Source: Pseudanabaenaceae cyanobacterium SKYG29 (GTDB lineage: Bacteria > Cyanobacteriota > Cyanobacteriia > Pseudanabaenales > Pseudanabaenaceae). Taken from it: DNA of 64,000 nt. Location of the stretch: NCBI GenBank assembly GCA_025055675.1, contig JANWWT010000001.1:558001-622000 (forward strand), written 5' to 3'. The stretch's first letter is position 1. Every line of letters starts with the position of its first letter. A model generated the notes under the pieces. That model was not told the DNA's origin and did not search any database. It worked only from the letters and a program-made list of their open reading frames with translations. Both the position numbers and the translations under genes were made by a program. Of this stretch, positions 54,797 through 64,000 are shown piece by piece.

Positions 54797-54822
54797 TTTG
54801 ATATTCCTTTAGCACGCACTAT

Positions 54823-57800
54823 CTAAAACCTCAAGGTACCCTGAAGCCTACTTTCTAAACCGCCTGTGCCGGTACCTACAGTGGCATCCAAACCAAAGGG
54901 TGAACCATCAAAGCTGTACCTTACTCTTACTCCCACAGCAGTTCCTGTTTCTCTTCTGCCACTACCTGACAGGAAGTCTGTGAAATTACGGTAATAAAGT
55001 CCCGCCCCAAAAGAGTCACTAAAATTGTTGAAACCTTCCAACTGATAAAAAGTAACATTGCCCATCTCAATCGACCCAGAAAACTGCAGAGACCGTAGTT
55101 GCAGAGAGGAAGATAGAGCAGTAGAAAAGGAACCACTCAGGAAACCACCTGGGTCTCGGTCAGTGGAAACGATCGTTACACTTGGCGTGACGAATAGTGT
55201 ACTGTCTCTAGTACTACGGGTGAAACTATAACTGAGGGAAGCAAAAGAGGGATTGAGAGAGTTAGGACTGGTGTTGTAACGCACATTTATACCAGGGATA
55301 GAGCTAGTAATTGTTTGCACATTACCTTGTTCATCCTTCTCTATGTTGACATTCGCTAAATTCAAAAGAGCATTTAAGTACAAACCAAAGTCAGGTTCTG
55401 TCACACCAGTAGCATTGCGGGGCACATTAAAAATGGCATTATTCCGCAGGTTAAGCCACATTCCCCCACTGAAACTGTAGTTGAATTCTCCCGCACTGCC
55501 AGCAAAGTTTAACTCTACGCTGGGTAGAAATTGAAAGCCACCAAATACATTTGCCCGATCGGTTCTGATAGCATCTCTTTGAATTTCCAAACGATCGAAG
55601 GCAATAGCAGCAGCACGGGTAGGAATGGGTACAGGAGTAACTGCATTTTGGTCAGCACGGACAATGACTTGTTCTCCGTTGGGGGAGGTGAAGAGAGTTT
55701 CCGCAACTATCGATTGATTGATAGGTACAGGAATAAAAGGTGTAGAAAAGCCCAAACCAAAATTATCATCAGACAAACGGACTGTACGGTAGAAAATTTC
55801 TCCTTCACTAAAAGTTGGTTCGGATTGAAAAATAAAGCTAATACCTCTCCTTAGAAGACCTGTACGAAGTTGCAAAAAAGAAAAATCCTCAGGACTGGCT
55901 TGACTGGGGAAGGTTAGGCTACCAGATACCTGTTCCACACGACTAGTGAAGTTACTATAAGCCAAACCAGTATTGATGCGACGATTGATACTTCGTCTTT
56001 GGTCACTAGTCATCCGAGTTTGTAGAGGGGTAAAGTCTTCATTTTTCTCTCTTTTTTCTTTAGCATCAGTCAAACTAGCATTGACATCTCCTGGGTTAAA
56101 AAATCTAAAGAAAATACCTGCCAGTAAGCCAAGAGTATTATTTAGCCACTCCTGATTATCCACTCTGCCACCACCTAGATCAACAGGAGCAGACACCCCA
56201 GGGTTAGAAAACACTTGGGCAAAAGTCGCGATTGTATCCTTGGAATCGTACTGAATGAAAGAACGTTGATGGGGCAAACTGAAATAGAGGCGATGCCAAT
56301 CATTGCTAGCATCTTCAAATAGTCTCTGTCTGGGTCCACCACCTCGGATAACCTCACTCAATTCCGAGACATCAGTGCGAATACCCAAAGACACCCACTG
56401 CAAAGAATTGAGGTAATGGAATCTTCTTTGGGAGCTTGTAAGAGACCGATCGAGCAAAACCTTTAATAAATCAGTATTATCGAACTTACCAAGTTGCCCA
56501 ACTTTGATGCCAGGCAAACTAGAGACAGGCGCAGTAATTTCCGGGGGCTTACCCGTCAAAACATTACCAAAAGTGATACCAGCTGCCGCCAACTCCGCTT
56601 CAGTTACTCTGCCACCTTCCCACAAATCTGTATTAGCTAGAGGCTGTAAGTTAACCGTAGGGAAAGCTTGCAATAAAACAGGTTCATTTACTGCTAGCTG
56701 GCTAAATAGTTCGCCACCGTTTAGTGGAAATTGAATGGAGTTAGCATCAATAACACGTACATTTCCTAAATTCTCTGTTAGATTAGTGGTAATTGTAGGA
56801 GCAGGAATACCCTCTGGATTATTAATTTGACCAACCACCGATAGAATTCCCCCCAGAGAAGTTGTATTCACATTGTCAGGATTAAACCTTAGTCTTTCTA
56901 GGTCAGCAGGAATGACTGTAACAAACTGTAAGCCATTATAACTCTGAATTTGGCGGAATATACTCTCTTGTCTTATATCCCTCGATCGTCCTTGATAGAT
57001 CAAACCAATCTGATACCCAGTAGTTTCAAAGACAATTTTGTTGTCAGGTAATACCCAATAGAACTGGTCATTGCGGGGAAAGAAGGAAGCAGTAAACTTA
57101 CCAATGTTGGGGTCTTGCTTTGCCCCCGATCGTAAATCAAATTCAAAATAGTAGTCCTTTTCCAGCGGTCTGAAAGCACTAGGAGTAAATGTCACCCGAT
57201 CGGTAACATTGAGGATGAAGGGATAAGAAAGAGCAGTGTTAGACAGGGCATTTTTAATTTTTAGATCAACCAATCTTCTCTTTACTTCTAGGTCAATTTC
57301 AGGAGCAGGAGGTTCTGCAGGAGTAATTTCAGGAGGTGGTACAACTGGGGGAGTGGGGTCAGGTGGGGGTGACTCTCTACGGAGGTCAGGGTTCACCGTA
57401 CCAGGAATAGTGGGTGTAGTTTGAGCTAAGCTATCGCCAGGAACAACAGGTAATACTGTTTGTCTAAGCGGATTATTGAGGTTGCTGGGCAAAAAAGGTA
57501 CAACAGTTACTACCTCTGATGGTCTAGAAGTATTTGTAACAGTTTCCTTCTCTGTCTTGGGATTGCCTGTATTTTTTGTTGCATCTAAACTGTTAGAATT
57601 GCTTTGTGCCACGATCGTTTTTTCTGCTGATTTAGTTTTATGAAGTAGAGACTCTAATACTCTTGTCAATCTGGTACCGTTTGCAATTGCCTGTTCTAAT
57701 TCTTTAGCAGTAATTTCCCTGGCTTGGGTACTCACTAGCTTCGTTGATTGTTGATTTTCAGCGACAAAGTTGTCTGTAGGTCTAATAGGAGAAGAAGAGG

Positions 57801-58281
57801 AAACAGACTTTCGAGCAATTGTAGCTCCCTTTACAATTTCATTGACTTGCGTATCAGGTATGAGATTTTTTACAAATATCTGCTCCAAGTTGACCAAAGT
57901 CTCTTTGGGAGTAAGTACGATCGGTTGATTTTCTACTATAGTCGGGGGTGAAGTAACAGATGATCTTAATGAGTTTGGCTGAGTTTGTTCTGCTATTGCT
58001 GAGGGACGAACGATCGTTACTGTATTTATCTTCTTATTAGGAGGTAAGTCAAAGGCATAAGGGTCTAAAACTTGCCCGTAGGTTGGTTTTATAGAATTAG
58101 GAGTGACTGATGCTTTTGCGGACGATGCAGGAGAAATATAGTTACCGTAGACAGCCCCCGATCTTCCCGTGAAAGATACAGAAGCAATAGTTTGCGCTAA
58201 TGACTTACTAGAATCACCCCAGAAAATTACTGCTCCCCAAAACAAGGCACCATAAGAGATAAATTTGCCTCTCACTAGCAA
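54823..58281 (-). CDS. Large predicted outer-membrane surface protein, family unknown
   Basis: A 1152-residue envelope protein. The N-terminus has a signal peptide (YGALFWGAVIFWGDSSKSLA). Residues about 60-330 are a low-complexity Ser/Thr/Pro linker ending in a PPPDPTPPVVPPPEITPAEPP-like run. The remainder is beta-rich with many alternating aromatic strands. The last residue is Phe (SRLQGTLRF), the classic end signal for BAM-inserted outer-membrane barrels. The last 250 residues read as barrel strands (FASLSYSFTRSTRDSTLFVT). It follows the 140-residue secreted protein gene on the same strand, 32 bp away. Confidence 0.75.
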   Translation of the reverse strand: MLVRGKFISYGALFWGAVIFWGDSSKSLAQTIASVSFTGRSGAVYGNYISPASSAKASVTPNSIKPTYGQVLDPYAFDLPPNKKINTVTIVRPSAIAEQTQPNSLRSSVTSPPTIVENQPIVLTPKETLVNLEQIFVKNLIPDTQVNEIVKGATIARKSVSSSSPIRPTDNFVAENQQSTKLVSTQAREITAKELEQAIANGTRLTRVLESLLHKTKSAEKTIVAQSNSNSLDATKNTGNPKTEKETVTNTSRPSEVVTVVPFLPSNLNNPLRQTVLPVVPGDSLAQTTPTIPGTVNPDLRRESPPPDPTPPVVPPPEITPAEPPAPEIDLEVKRRLVDLKIKNALSNTALSYPFILNVTDRVTFTPSAFRPLEKDYYFEFDLRSGAKQDPNIGKFTASFFPRNDQFYWVLPDNKIVFETTGYQIGLIYQGRSRDIRQESIFRQIQSYNGLQFVTVIPADLERLRFNPDNVNTTSLGGILSVVGQINNPEGIPAPTITTNLTENLGNVRVIDANSIQFPLNGGELFSQLAVNEPVLLQAFPTVNLQPLANTDLWEGGRVTEAELAAAGITFGNVLTGKPPEITAPVSSLPGIKVGQLGKFDNTDLLKVLLDRSLTSSQRRFHYLNSLQWVSLGIRTDVSELSEVIRGGGPRQRLFEDASNDWHRLYFSLPHQRSFIQYDSKDTIATFAQVFSNPGVSAPVDLGGGRVDNQEWLNNTLGLLAGIFFRFFNPGDVNASLTDAKEKREKNEDFTPLQTRMTSDQRRSINRRINTGLAYSNFTSRVEQVSGSLTFPSQASPEDFSFLQLRTGLLRRGISFIFQSEPTFSEGEIFYRTVRLSDDNFGLGFSTPFIPVPINQSIVAETLFTSPNGEQVIVRADQNAVTPVPIPTRAAAIAFDRLEIQRDAIRTDRANVFGGFQFLPSVELNFAGSAGEFNYSFSGGMWLNLRNNAIFNVPRNATGVTEPDFGLYLNALLNLANVNIEKDEQGNVQTITSSIPGINVRYNTSPNSLNPSFASLSYSFTRSTRDSTLFVTPSVTIVSTDRDPGGFLSGSFSTALSSSLQLRSLQFSGSIEMGNVTFYQLEGFNNFSDSFGAGLYYRNFTDFLSGSGRRETGTAVGVRVRYSFDGSPFGLDATVGTGTGGLESRLQGTLRF

Positions 58282-58313
58282 TCTTCCTCACACAAAGATA
58301 CAGAGGAGAAAAG

Positions 58314-58736
58314 CTAGTCCAAACCAATAGAACCAGCCGCTGCGCGCACGATCGAGATGTATGCTGCTAGATTAGCCTGGTTAGTTGTTAAGTTAGTGAT
58401 TTGGGACAAATTTTGAGCAACCTGGGTAGAGACAGTTAGGGTAGAATCCCTCAATACAGTGCCTGGTGTAAGAGTCAGTGAGGTAGGTCTAAAGTCATTA
58501 CTACCAGCAGTTCCAGTACTTGTGTAGCTGACTGTGGAATTGGAGCCACTACTGAAGAATAAGCCTGGTGGTAAAACAATCTGACCACTAATTGAAGTAG
58601 TTGCCCCACTCGGGGCAATATAAGTTAAAGCGCCAGAGAAAGATGCAGTTTGACTCAGAACTGCTCTACCAGGCAAGAATGCTAAGCTAACTAAACTCCC
58701 GATCGTTGCTACTTGTTTCCATGGAATTACTCTCAT
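58314..58736 (-). CDS. Small secreted protein with C-terminal NLAAY-IVRAAAG motif (paralogue A)
   Basis: A 140-residue exported protein. The signal peptide covers about residues 1-29 (LVSLAFLPGRAVLSQTA). The mature part is Ser/Thr-rich and beta-like (SFSGALTYIAPSGATTSISG). It ends QANLAAYISIVRAAAGSIGL plus Asp. The tail shares 14 of its last 20 residues with the protein at 59467-59892. It lies 32 bp upstream of the large envelope protein gene in the same direction and is probably its operon partner, perhaps its substrate. Family not recognised. Confidence 0.75.
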   Translation of the reverse strand: MRVIPWKQVATIGSLVSLAFLPGRAVLSQTASFSGALTYIAPSGATTSISGQIVLPPGLFFSSGSNSTVSYTSTGTAGSNDFRPTSLTLTPGTVLRDSTLTVSTQVAQNLSQITNLTTNQANLAAYISIVRAAAGSIGLD

Positions 58737-58938
58737 AGTTACTCCTCTAGCTGCACATAAACCTGAATTCAGGGGCAGTATATATAATAGTTTCTAGCTA
58801 GTCAAGAAAAGTTTTTATCAAGCTTTGAGGCATGTGCAATATCCATGCATCTAGTAAATTTCTTGAACCTTATCGATCGTTGAACCTGTAACCTCAGCTA
58901 TCTCCTCTTCCCAGGGCTAAAAAGTTCATGGCGATTTT

Positions 58939-59396
58939 TTATCTTGCCAACTGCCTGCCCTCTTCCAAAATTTCCTGATACATCATATTCCTCCGCAATA
59001 TCTGCTTGATGATTTTTAATCCTCCCAAAATGGCTGTGGCAGCAGCAATCTTCGTCCTCTCTCGCCTGTCCTTGTTGAGCCACCCGCCCGAGTGCTCCCA
59101 CTTCACCTTGGCTAACAGTGCTAAAGGAATTAAACCTGGGGTTTGCAACAGTTGTTCTAGGGGTTGTTCCTACAGCCTCAGCACTTTCAACTCATGCCTA
59201 CTCTTGGGTGTAATTGAGCATGCTGAAGAGGATGTCCTCCCTTGATGTGCAAGATGATTTCTGCCCCTACCAAAAAGCCAACAGATTTGGCACTAATTGG
59301 CTCTAGGGAAGGTTCCGAGGGTTGCAATTTGGTGAGGGGGATAGTAGCGGGCATAATCAGCGCTGTAGGTTTCAATCAGGAATTTGGTAATGGAGT
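58939..59396 (-). pseudogene. Decayed Rpn/PD-(D/E)XK nuclease (putative transposase, DUF4351-type) gene
   Basis: Family-like pieces occur in order but in different minus-strand frames. ITKFLIETYSADYA (about 59392-59350) is followed after a shift by IPLTKLQPSEPSLEPISAKS (about 59340-59280) and VGAEIILHIKGG. A later frame gives TPGLIPLALLAKV, then KIAAATAILGGLKIIKQILR and YQEILEEGRQLAR. These resemble the start, LTKLxPxELSLEPI block, LLxTPGLIPLA block and C-terminal EGxxxG region of cyanobacterial Rpn-family proteins. Frameshifts and a missing middle show it is not functional. The small frames here are its fragments. Confidence 0.7.
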
Positions 59397-59429
59397 CAGA
59401 CAATTGCCTATCTTCAATCCCGTGGAGGC

Positions 59430-59453
59430 AAAAAAAGGGAGCTAATAGCCCCC
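59430..59453 (-). terminator. Rho-independent terminator of secreted paralogue B
   Basis: The minus-strand RNA forms GGGGGCU-AUU-AGCUCCC (7 bp with one G-U pair) followed by UUUUUUU. It sits 13 bp after the stop codon of the 59467-59892 gene and before the pseudogene. Confidence 0.8.
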
Positions 59454-59466
59454 TCCTAACCTGAGA

Positions 59467-59892
59467 CTACTCCAAACCATCATTGCCAGCAGCGGCACGA
59501 ACGATCGCGACATAGGCAGCCAAGTTAGGTTGGTTGGTGCTACCGAGGATGTTAGCTGCTCCAGGACCAGCAATGGCAGAAAGATTTTGAGCCACTACCT
59601 GACTAACAGAGATAGGGGCTGCACTAGCATTAACTATAGCGTTTAAGGTCAAGTTGTTGACAAAGGAGTTTACTCCAAAAAACGGACCCAAGTTGTAATT
59701 CGGTTGGACAATTACACCATTGGCTTGAACACCACCAATTTCTGCTCCCAAACTGGTGCTGGCACCGGTAATGTTGGTTAGAGTCACACTACCTGAAACA
59801 TAGGATTGAGCTTGAACGGACCGACTAGCTAAGGCACAAAGCGTAAAAGTACCTATAGAAGCAGTGGATACCAGAACTACTTTTTTTAGCAT
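59467..59892 (-). CDS. Small secreted protein with C-terminal NLAAY-IVRAAAG motif (paralogue B)
   Basis: A 141-residue exported protein. A signal peptide (VLVSTASIGTFTLCALASRS with AQA cleavage) is followed by a beta-like mature domain (SYVSGSVTLTNITGASTSLG). It ends QPNLAAYVAIVRAAAGNDGL plus Glu. It shares the QVVAQNLSxI segment and the tail with paralogue A at 58314-58736. It has its own terminator, so it is transcribed separately from the paralogue A-envelope protein unit. Family not recognised. Confidence 0.75.
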   Translation of the reverse strand: MLKKVVLVSTASIGTFTLCALASRSVQAQSYVSGSVTLTNITGASTSLGAEIGGVQANGVIVQPNYNLGPFFGVNSFVNNLTLNAIVNASAAPISVSQVVAQNLSAIAGPGAANILGSTNQPNLAAYVAIVRAAAGNDGLE

Positions 59893-60060
59893 AGCAAGAC
59901 TTCCCTAAACAATCTTAATGGTCGTTTACCCAAATTATACCCCCTAGGAGGCTTATTTCAGTCTATCAAATATCTTGTATTTGAGTTGCTTTTTGCTTTC
60001 GGTTGCTTCTGCGAAACTACTTTGATAACATGGAGCCAACAAATTTAAGGGGTTGTTCCG

Positions 60061-62355
60061 ATGCTTGTCAGTGTCGTCAGTGCCGTTACTGGTAACTCCC
60101 TGTTACGCTATGCGATTGAGAGCGTACAAAATCAGACTTACTCTCGTATTGAACATTTAATTGTCATAGATGGGCAGGAGCGGGAAGCCTCAGTTAGACA
60201 AATTTTAGCAAGCATGGATTTATCACGGCACAGGACTCATATCCTCTGTTTACCCTACCCCACTGGCAAGGACAATTACATTTGTCATCGCATCTATGGC
60301 ATGGCTCCCTTTTTAATCAATGGGGAATATGTTTGCTACCTAGACGAAGATAATTGGTATGACCCCAACCATGTAGAGTCCCTAGTCAGAATAGTAGAAG
60401 AAAAAAACTTAGATTGGGCTTATGCTTTGCGCAAGATTGTAGACAGAGATGGCAACTTCTTATGCTTGGATGACTGCGAAAGTTTAGGCAAGTGGGCATG
60501 CAGGGAAAATTACCACATGGTCGATACTAATTGCTATTTCCTAAAGAAGGAGATAGCGATCGAGTTTTCTCAGATTTGGTATGCTAAGTTTAGGGAAGTT
60601 ACAAAAGTTACTGGCAATACCTATGTTGATAATCCAGATATAGCTCTATGTAAAATTCTGTTAGAGAAATATCAAAGAGTTGACACTACAGGTATTTACT
60701 CTGTTAACTACCGCTTGGGTAGCAGTTCTAGTTCAGTTCAGCTATCTTTCTTTTGGGAAAATAATCAAAGGAAACAAGAACAGTATCCTTATGGGTTTCC
60801 TTGGCGCAGAATAAAGTTAAAGGATATTCCCCTACCACGATCTTTACCCAAACAAGCAAGCGCCGATTGCTACAAGGAGGAATTTTTCCATGAAGTTAAA
60901 ACAGCAGCACATAGTAGTGCATCTGCAGTCCTTCCTTATCTGTGGCAGTTACTGGATCATAGAGTGCAATCAGTTGTAGATGTGGGGTGTGGTACTGGTT
61001 CATGGTTAGCAAAAGTGCAATCTTTGTTTGGCATAACTGATATCTTGGGCATTGATGGAGATTATGTAGAACGGGATAGGTTAGAAATACCTGTTGACAA
61101 GTTTCTGAGTCATGATTTAATTGAGCCACTACCTATACAACGCAGGTTCGACCTAGTTATATGTCTAGAAGTAGCGGAACATTTGCCTTACACCTGCGCA
61201 GCAACTTTCATCCAGACTTTGACAGAATTGGGTGATGTCATTCTGTTTTCAGCTGCTATTCCTCTGCAACCTGGAACTAATCATATCAATACCCAATTCC
61301 CCCACTATTGGTTACAGCTATTTCAGGAGAGGGGCTATAAGTGCATTGATTGCTTACGGGATAAGTTCTGGCAAGATAGCCGTGTAGAATGGTGGTATGC
61401 TCAGAATATGTTGCTATTTGTGAAAGAAAATATTCTAACAGAAAATACTAATCTCTTGGCTTTACACCAGATGACTGATTTGAACTGCTTAGTAAGAATT
61501 CACCCTCGTAACCTGCCTGCTAAAATTGCCTTTGGACATGATGATACTGTTGAATTAAAGGTAGAAACATCAGCAATAGGAACAGATGACGAGAAATACA
61601 AATTGCACAGAGAGTTATTACTTAAGTTTTTTGACAAATCTCCCTACGAAGACTTTCCTTATCTGGACTACAGTTGTGACTTACAAGGCTGGGGTAGCAC
61701 TGTAACTGTATTTGAGAGATTAATAAGTCAGTTATTGCCCAAGTTGATCATAGAAGTGGGTACGTGGAAAGGAGCCTCTGCTATTCACATGGTTGATATA
61801 CTAAAGTCACACGGAATTGTTTGTCCTGTACTTTGTGTTGACACCTGGCTTGGCGGCTTAGAAGTAGCAAAAGACAACCCGATTTCCTATCTGGGAGTAA
61901 CTGTACCAAGACGTTATGGTTATTCTCAGCTCTATTTTCAGTTTCTGGCGAATGTGATGCATAGGCAAGCGCAAAACTATATTGTTCCTATTCCCCTGCA
62001 TGCTGTAGCGGCATTTAAGTTATTGCTATATTGGCGAGTGTCTGCTGATCTGATCTATGTTGATGCTTCTCACGAAGAAGAGGATGTATATGCAGACTTG
62101 TCTAACTACTGGCAGTTGCTCCGATCGGGTGGTGTGCTTCTAGGGGATGATTATCCTGACCCCAGATTCCCTGGAGTATATGCCGCTGTTAATCGCTTTG
62201 CTAAGGAGAACAACTTAGAGATACAATCCGAGGGTAATAAGTTTTGGTTTAAGAAACCTGTCAGTGCAGAGGACAAGATTGAGGCTTTGACTAAACGTAT
62301 CGCTGAATTAGAGTTAAAGCTAAATCCTGATATTGATTTAAGTTATTTTGCCTAG
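60061..62355 (+). CDS. Three-domain fusion: GT2 glycosyltransferase, SAM methyltransferase, second SAM methyltransferase, with IDLSYF tag
   Basis: A 764-residue protein. Residues about 1-230 are a GT-A/GT2 domain (VSVVSAVTGNSLLRYAIESV, acidic motif CYLDEDNWYDP). Residues about 285-455 are a methyltransferase with motif I VVDVGCGTGSWL (from residue 305) and CLEVAEHLPYTCA. Residues about 525-740 are a second SAM domain of the Methyltransf_24 kind, with IIEVGTWKGAS (from 563), CVDTWLGG and YVDASHEEEDVYADL. The end KRIAELELKLNPDIDLSYFA matches the tail of the GT-B-like protein at 26569-28113. A TPR/SPINDLY-like gene starts 9 bp downstream. Confidence 0.85.
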   Translation: MLVSVVSAVTGNSLLRYAIESVQNQTYSRIEHLIVIDGQEREASVRQILASMDLSRHRTHILCLPYPTGKDNYICHRIYGMAPFLINGEYVCYLDEDNWYDPNHVESLVRIVEEKNLDWAYALRKIVDRDGNFLCLDDCESLGKWACRENYHMVDTNCYFLKKEIAIEFSQIWYAKFREVTKVTGNTYVDNPDIALCKILLEKYQRVDTTGIYSVNYRLGSSSSSVQLSFFWENNQRKQEQYPYGFPWRRIKLKDIPLPRSLPKQASADCYKEEFFHEVKTAAHSSASAVLPYLWQLLDHRVQSVVDVGCGTGSWLAKVQSLFGITDILGIDGDYVERDRLEIPVDKFLSHDLIEPLPIQRRFDLVICLEVAEHLPYTCAATFIQTLTELGDVILFSAAIPLQPGTNHINTQFPHYWLQLFQERGYKCIDCLRDKFWQDSRVEWWYAQNMLLFVKENILTENTNLLALHQMTDLNCLVRIHPRNLPAKIAFGHDDTVELKVETSAIGTDDEKYKLHRELLLKFFDKSPYEDFPYLDYSCDLQGWGSTVTVFERLISQLLPKLIIEVGTWKGASAIHMVDILKSHGIVCPVLCVDTWLGGLEVAKDNPISYLGVTVPRRYGYSQLYFQFLANVMHRQAQNYIVPIPLHAVAAFKLLLYWRVSADLIYVDASHEEEDVYADLSNYWQLLRSGGVLLGDDYPDPRFPGVYAAVNRFAKENNLEIQSEGNKFWFKKPVSAEDKIEALTKRIAELELKLNPDIDLSYFA

Positions 62356-62364
62356 GGAGGGTTT

Positions 62365-64000
62365 ATGGAAGAGGGGCTAAAACTGATTGCGGAACAGCGT
62401 TTACCTGAAGCCTTAGTTTTTTTCCAGGGTCTCATTGCTCAGGATGCTAATAATGCAGAGGCGCACAACTATTTGGGTATGGTCTATGCTTTTTTAGGAG
62501 AGATGGAAGCAGCCATCAATTCAATCCGACAGGCAGTTGCTCTCAATCCTAACTACGCTGAAGCTCTGACTAATTTGGGGGTATTGTTGGCTATGACCGA
62601 TCGGAAGGAAGAAGCGATCGAGTACTATCAGCAAGCGTTAGGGATCAACAGGGCATTACCAGAAGTGCACAATAATTTGGGAGTTTTACTGCGGGAAAAA
62701 GGAGAAATTGAAGAGGCAGTTAAATGTTTTGAACAGGCATTGAGTTCATATCCTAATTATGTGGATGCTCTCAATGGCTTGGGTCTGTGCTTTTCTAATC
62801 TAGGCAAACTAGATGATGCCTGTGAGTATTTACGCCGTGCTTTGACTTTAGACCCCGATCGCTTAGAAACTCATCTCAATTTGGGTCTAGTTTTGCGGGA
62901 AAAGAAGGAACTGGATGAGGCGTTGGTGATATTGCAAAAGGCGATCGAGATTGATCCCAACAGTCCAGAAGCTCACAACCATTTGGGATTAGTTTACCGT
63001 GATCAAAAGCGCCTACTGAATGCGGAGATAGAATTTCGCCAAGCGATTAGCCTGAATCCTGAATATGCCGAAGCTTATCGCAATTTGGGCGTAGTTCTTT
63101 ATCGGCAGAGTAAGTTGGAGAACAATCGACAGAAGGAAGAAGAGGCAATCTCTTACTTTGAGAAATGCTTGGCACTTGATCCCGACATGCCTGAAGTGCA
63201 TAACAACCTGGGAATTGTCCATAGAGACAAGGGGAATTGGGCAAAAGCGAAAGAGAGTTTTCTCAAAGCCTTGGAACTACGCCCTGGCTATCCTCTCGCT
63301 TGTAAGAATCTGGCAGAAGTTTACGCTAATGAGAAGGACTACGCTAATGCTATTCGCTACTACTCCCTAGCAGTGGATCAGAATCCCAAAGATGTTGATT
63401 CTTTCGTTTGTCTAGCGGGTACCTTACAGAAGGAAGGTAAGTTGGAAGAGGCGGTGACAGTTTGTACTAAAGGCATTGAGCAGAATCCAGAAGCGATCGA
63501 GCTGTACAAATTACAAGCTTCTTTCTTTTTGCAGGGTAATCGGGCGGACAAGGCAGTAGAACTGTTGGAAAAAGCAAAAGAGATTAAACCAGAGGATCGG
63601 AGTGTTAGGGAACTGCTGGGCGGTGCTTTGATCGGGGAGGGTAAGATTCAGCAGGGACGATCGGAGTGGGAAGCGCTATTACGCCAACCCCAATCTAACT
63701 TCAACCTAGAAATTAAGTTGGCGTTTTCTTTACCTATTATTCTAGAATCGATCGAGCAGATTAAATCAGAACGATTACGCTTGGTCAATTCTCTGCGCAG
63801 ACTGACAGAAAGAGGTGCAATCTTCAATGATCCCCTCACGGAGATTGCTACTTCTAACTTTTATCTTGCCTATCACGGGGAAAATGATCGTTCCATCATG
63901 GAAGAGATTGCTCAATTTTTCCTCAAAGCTTGTCCCAAACTAGAGTGGACTGCTCCCCATTGTCGCAGTGTTTCCCTTCCCAAAGAACGCATTCGTCTTG
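62365..64000 (+). CDS. TPR/SPINDLY-like (GT41 O-GlcNAc transferase type) protein, partial at window end
   Basis: The reading frame opens at ATG 62365 after GGAGG and runs past the window end. At least 545 residues are visible. About twelve TPR units make up residues 1-440 (AEAHNYLGMVYAFLGEMEAA, ALTNLGVLLAMTDRKEEAIE, PEVHNNLGVLLREKGEIEEA), with one unit enlarged by a short charged insertion (ENNRQKEEE). The last visible part, FYLAYHGENDRSIMEEIAQF, resembles the linker that precedes the GT41 catalytic domain in bacterial SPINDLY-like proteins. It is probably co-transcribed with the fusion gene 9 bp upstream. The catalytic part lies outside the window. Confidence 0.8.
   Translation, partial: MEEGLKLIAEQRLPEALVFFQGLIAQDANNAEAHNYLGMVYAFLGEMEAAINSIRQAVALNPNYAEALTNLGVLLAMTDRKEEAIEYYQQALGINRALPEVHNNLGVLLREKGEIEEAVKCFEQALSSYPNYVDALNGLGLCFSNLGKLDDACEYLRRALTLDPDRLETHLNLGLVLREKKELDEALVILQKAIEIDPNSPEAHNHLGLVYRDQKRLLNAEIEFRQAISLNPEYAEAYRNLGVVLYRQSKLENNRQKEEEAISYFEKCLALDPDMPEVHNNLGIVHRDKGNWAKAKESFLKALELRPGYPLACKNLAEVYANEKDYANAIRYYSLAVDQNPKDVDSFVCLAGTLQKEGKLEEAVTVCTKGIEQNPEAIELYKLQASFFLQGNRADKAVELLEKAKEIKPEDRSVRELLGGALIGEGKIQQGRSEWEALLRQPQSNFNLEIKLAFSLPIILESIEQIKSERLRLVNSLRRLTERGAIFNDPLTEIATSNFYLAYHGENDRSIMEEIAQFFLKACPKLEWTAPHCRSVSLPKERIRL

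Follow-up and report, generated by a model that had tools for sequence, protein, structure and literature searches.

Gene content of the locus

The window analysed here, a stretch of 64,000 nucleotides from Pseudanabaenaceae cyanobacterium SKYG29, carries two genes for small, putatively exported proteins and, next to one of them, a gene for a large envelope protein:

54823..58281, minus strand: large envelope protein, 1152 aa from a TTG start, with signal peptide, linker and a predicted barrel ending in F
54823..57279, minus strand: modelled part of the large protein, 818 aa (pLDDT 84, pTM 0.71), conserved across cyanobacterial homologues
58282..58313, minus strand: gap of 32 bp that separates the large gene from that of small protein 1
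58314..58736, minus strand: small exported protein 1, 140 aa, C-terminal end NLAAYISIVRAAAGSIGLD-COOH
58737..59466, minus strand: stretch of 730 bp between the two small genes, with no intact family reading frame and no Pfam match
59467..59892, minus strand: small exported protein 2, 141 aa, with signal peptide, beta domain and C-terminal helix, end NLAAYVAIVRAAAGNDGLE-COOH

Both small open reading frames (58314-58736 and 59467-59892) begin with hydrophobic, signal-peptide-like N-termini, in agreement with a preliminary description of this DNA that had proposed two secreted paralogues of about 140 residues. The nearly identical 20-residue ending claimed there is also borne out, with 14 of 20 positions identical. 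The same description had set this conserved tail against differing middles. Although the tail is indeed the best conserved part, the middles are related as well: a BLASTP alignment spans the full length of both proteins (52/147 identities, 35%, E 1e-12), and a central motif, SVSxE..xPxGxxF, is conserved throughout the family. No lipobox is apparent in the small-protein sequences read, and these two copies are the only ones in the 2.56 Mb genome. Between them, in 58737-59466, all reading frames are broken; a likeness of this stretch to a decayed Rpn-type nuclease gene found no support in Pfam.

Small protein 1 lies 32 bp upstream of the 1152-residue reading frame, as described, when the latter is counted from its TTG. 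The TTG may not be the true start, as judged from the sequence; a GTG at 58275 has the better spacing relative to a GAGGAA motif. The two genes probably form one transcription unit.

In the large protein, the signal peptide is followed by a low-complexity, Pro-rich linker of ~320 residues and then by a predicted outer-membrane beta-barrel of ~820 residues. The AlphaFold2 model, built with 47 homologues, contains roughly two dozen or more strands as read from the DSSP string, together with an N-terminal helix and a helical insert at model residues 375-445. Signal peptide, many antiparallel strands and a C-terminal aromatic residue are all present, as is general for outer-membrane beta-barrels. 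A Foldseek search with the model returned ushers (PapC and FimD prominent), LptD, FhaC/CdiB and TonB-dependent barrels at E values of 1e-5 to 1e-3, at low TM-scores of about 0.1-0.28 for large barrels, which do not set the fold class. The protein is thus predicted to be a large outer-membrane beta-barrel. Among ten examples read, the low-complexity region between signal peptide and barrel ranges from ~100 to 600 residues. The barrels L083:5370-9047 and L086:5382-9452 carry long N-terminal extensions of near-identical repeats (~48 residues in L083), and these are the same loci at which the small proteins are four-domain fusions.

The barrel module begins right after gltX (54800-62400 region). 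In sister species of the same genus both the barrel and the small family are absent, and in two of them the gene directly after gltX is presumably dnaE, going by its N-terminal sequence. GC content is 0.41-0.43 over most of 55 kb to 62 kb, compared to 0.46-0.49 outside. Given its absence from the sister species, the different gltX neighbour and the drop in GC, the module looks like an accessory unit that was acquired or patchily lost. Adjoining it, 60061-62355 encodes a 764-aa protein in which a family-2 glycosyltransferase is fused to two methyltransferase domains; the gene for a long TPR-repeat protein comes next, from 62365 on.

The small-protein family and its C-terminal tail

Members of the family share one layout, in which a signal peptide precedes a small beta domain and two helices, and the chain ends in -(I/V)(I/V)RA-xAG-xxGL(D/E)-COOH. 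Conservation is highest in the tail, with a mean relative entropy of 1.86 bits over the last 22 residues and 2.15 over the last 8, as against 1.47 for the beta domain. When family members were collected with a profile lacking the last 22 residues, 103 of 109 distinct reading frames ended in (L/M)(D/E), a count made slightly circular by the fact that the training sequences had first been chosen with the tail in view; the same ending was found in 11 of 659 other reading frames from the same loci. The six exceptions end in LF, LL or LN, or continue beyond the motif. In the order to which the window belongs, every relative has the ending A(A/G)AGxxGL(D/E) or one close to it. Endings of small proteins beside cyanobacterial barrels include IIRAGAGANGLGGLE, LDEFTALVRAAVGNDGLE, DVIGIVKSWQSGGSAALD and LDAYAAILKAAAGANGLE.

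Four proteins consist of three to four fused copies. Their internal copies keep the helix core (I/V)(I/V)RA and its variants, and the tail helix is therefore part of the domain. The terminal L-(D/E), in contrast, is present at every chain end and at none of the internal copies, so that the final residues seem to mark where the chain ends. The tail is thus retained in homologues, including the chain ends of fused proteins, and its conservation exceeds chance.

The AlphaFold2 model of small protein 1 (54 alignment rows, pLDDT 76) places strands at residues 32-96 and helices at 102-111 and 120-134. Its beta domain is confidently predicted; the last helix, which spans the conserved tail, is of lower confidence. 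The tail itself is predicted as an alpha-helix followed by a short coil. A fold search of the PDB with this model gave no match, and no Ig-like or pilin fold was found.

These features bear on the preliminary suggestion that the tail acts as in pilin-like or donor-strand systems. If its usher and pilins were very divergent, a chaperone-usher pilus of the donor-strand type would fit the presence of several subunit genes beside one barrel gene and the prominence of PapC and FimD among the fold matches. Chaperone-usher pili (FimD/PapC; cyanobacterial CccS-CccP-Slr0019) likewise combine a large outer-membrane barrel gene with several small exported subunits, and ushers are among the best fold matches of the barrel. 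However, the predicted beta domain with two helices is not an Ig-like subunit, and the C-terminal signal would be helical rather than a donor strand. Neither the PapD-type chaperone PF00345 nor the usher domain PF00577 was detected in the window's genome (the E. coli control was positive for the usher), and PF00577 was likewise missing from the 47 barrels. Profile comparison of the barrel family with E. coli FimD gave an hhalign probability of 0.1, and that of the small family with E. coli FimA showed no similarity. Moreover, cyanobacteria have a separate, recognised type of chaperone-usher locus, in which SCPU, PapD and PF00577 genes occur together (PMC4390875). We find a divergent chaperone-usher pilus barely credible here and do not retain the pilin analogy.

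Distribution and pairing with the barrel

For the window's small proteins and barrel, Pfam, NCBIfam, PADLOC and PHROGs returned no matches. Scans of both family alignments gave weak, scattered matches in a few members only, and PDB sequence profile searches with both families gave nothing meaningful. No relatives were found in viral contigs or plasmids. Genome contigs scanned for patterns from one sequence alone gave no match. With an alignment of 20 large proteins as query, the scan retrieved 64 named loci, all of them cyanobacterial by name (Pseudanabaena, Nostoc, Anabaena, Moorena, Geminocystis, Leptolyngbya, Laspinema, Snowella, Fischerella and others); it relies on conserved peptide patterns and may miss remoter or non-cyanobacterial relatives. 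Two weak single-sequence matches in the window's order (G004 and G024) disappeared when the family profile was used.

Across 386 cyanobacterial genomes from the whole phylum, the barrel was detected in 26 and the small family in 24, each of these 24 being among the 26 (p about 3e-36). Of the 38 genomes that make up the window's order in this set, the same 11 have both families. Of the two barrel genomes with no detectable small protein, G281 has a partial barrel match (509/816 profile positions) and G120 a barrel with a different secreted neighbour. Some divergent barrels have beside them another kind of secreted protein, Pro-rich and with LD as its last residues (L099:3416-4225, L100:3915-4613, L153:10744-11256 and L156:10624-11154), which may represent another partner class.

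The two genes are also physically linked. In the window's order, one to three small genes per locus sit directly upstream of the large gene. Over the wider set, a small gene was found near the barrel at 51 of 65 loci, with a median gap of 128 bp and 45 of the 51 within 500 bp; at 8 of the 14 loci with no adjacent small gene, the barrel lies within 1.2 kb of a contig end. The small-protein homologues thus do neighbour the large protein, at 51/65 loci, and co-occur with it in 24/24 genomes; neither outcome that the preliminary description named as refuting, loss of the tail conservation or lack of the large neighbour, was observed. As for orientation, 35 nearby small genes lie on the opposite strand past the 3' end of the barrel gene and 14 upstream on the same strand. 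Since linkage is kept while orientation changes, the two genes appear to be a functional pair rather than merely to share a promoter. The small family, for which no published description together with the barrel was found in the open-access literature, is one not described before and occurs almost only beside this one barrel family.

Pairing extends to subtypes. Distances among barrels correlate with those among their nearest small proteins (Mantel r 0.86, 0/2000 permutations), a correlation partly expected from shared descent. Where a genome has two or three barrels, the small subtypes next to them differ accordingly. In Nostoc sp. FACHB-973, three barrels are accompanied by three different small subtypes, and for each of them the sets of loci that hold the closest relatives of the barrel and of its small partner are identical or match closely.

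Proposed function and known export systems

The window contains both elements by which we define the family here, a barrel and small proteins ending in GL(D/E). Because the two families co-occur, adjoin and diverge together, and because the C-terminus of the small proteins is conserved, we read them as a dedicated pair. Our preferred reading, held with a confidence just short of even, is that the large gene and its two small companions encode a dedicated surface system of two components. The barrel would read the chain end of the small proteins and export, assemble or display them. Sec would bring the small proteins to the periplasm; the barrel would recognise the chain-end helix with its GL(D/E)-COOH, move the proteins through or onto the outer membrane and arrange them into a coat on the cell surface, a short fibre or an adhesin. 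Paralogues and three- to four-domain fusions would serve as alternative or repeating subunits. Of the original proposal that the tail is a recognition or assembly signal tied to the large envelope protein, this keeps the part favoured by tail conservation, linkage and co-occurrence, and drops the donor-strand version.

The arrangement is reminiscent of two-partner secretion (FhaC/CdiB with TpsA), in which a barrel serves only the secreted protein encoded next to it; the fold matches of the barrel also include CdiB and, weakly, FhaC. There, however, the signal is an N-terminal TPS domain on a large protein, whereas here it would be C-terminal on small ones, and no POTRA or Omp85-family Pfam match was found in the 47 barrels.

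Genes for type B CTD proteins and PorP-like barrels of the type IX system lie adjacent to each other. In Bacteroidota, type B CTD proteins are reported to dock on barrels of the PorP-like kind (PMC9143113), and this pairing of a C-terminal element with a particular barrel resembles the gene-adjacent barrel and conserved C-terminus described here. By analogy, the barrel could be a surface anchor or receptor, with the small proteins leaving the cell by another route and docking through their C-terminus on its outer face. Proximity and pair specificity fit such an anchor equally well. Yet the module is not linked to any other export machine, and the type IX pairing is restricted to Bacteroidota. 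The CTD is a beta-sandwich domain (PMC4804311), in contrast to the cyanobacterial short helix and terminal GL(D/E)-COOH. No CTD or PorP match was found for the small proteins in Pfam or NCBIfam, nor a Pfam match of that kind for the barrel family. We regard a pure anchoring role as unlikely.

A large barrel with a small partner also recalls LptD-LptE, and LptD is among the fold matches; the small proteins might then remain in the periplasm, without ever leaving the cell, as gates or accessory subunits that serve the barrel much as LptE serves LptD. The strict co-occurrence would suit this role, and the predicted C-terminal helix could insert into the barrel. A stoichiometric accessory nevertheless fits poorly with the one to three or more divergent genes that accompany a barrel and with versions of three to four fused domains. 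The partner here, multi-copy and tandemly fused in some species, shows no apparent lipobox and is apparently not a lipoprotein. Membership of the barrel in the LptD type found no support (no LptD/OstA Pfam match; hhalign probability with E. coli LptD 0.1). Such a gate or accessory seems quite unlikely.

The appearance of TonB-dependent barrels among the Foldseek matches, and the pairing of a secreted protein with a barrel, would further be compatible with small proteins that bind a nutrient outside the cell for import through the barrel, in the manner of the HasA/HasR haemophore. Against this, none of the 47 barrels matches the TonB receptor family, the Pfam scan showed neither plug nor receptor domain, profile comparison with E. 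coli FhuA gave nothing (hhalign probability 0.6), and no conserved transport genes are linked to the module. We judge nutrient scavenging very unlikely.

Taking the export and assembly reading one step further, we tentatively, and with more doubt than belief, propose a cyanobacterial outer-membrane secretion or assembly pathway that has not been described, in which a large, chaperone-free barrel would recognise a short signal at the chain end of small subunits (the helix with GL(D/E)-COOH) and build a surface polymer. Both families recur across cyanobacteria such as Nostoc, Anabaena, Moorena and Pseudanabaena, yet have no Pfam or NCBIfam entry and no sequence relative in the PDB. If the proposal is true, cyanobacteria would possess a route of outer-membrane export or display that falls under none of the known secretion types. 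Its signal, only a few residues long, would be easily tested and possibly useful for surface display.
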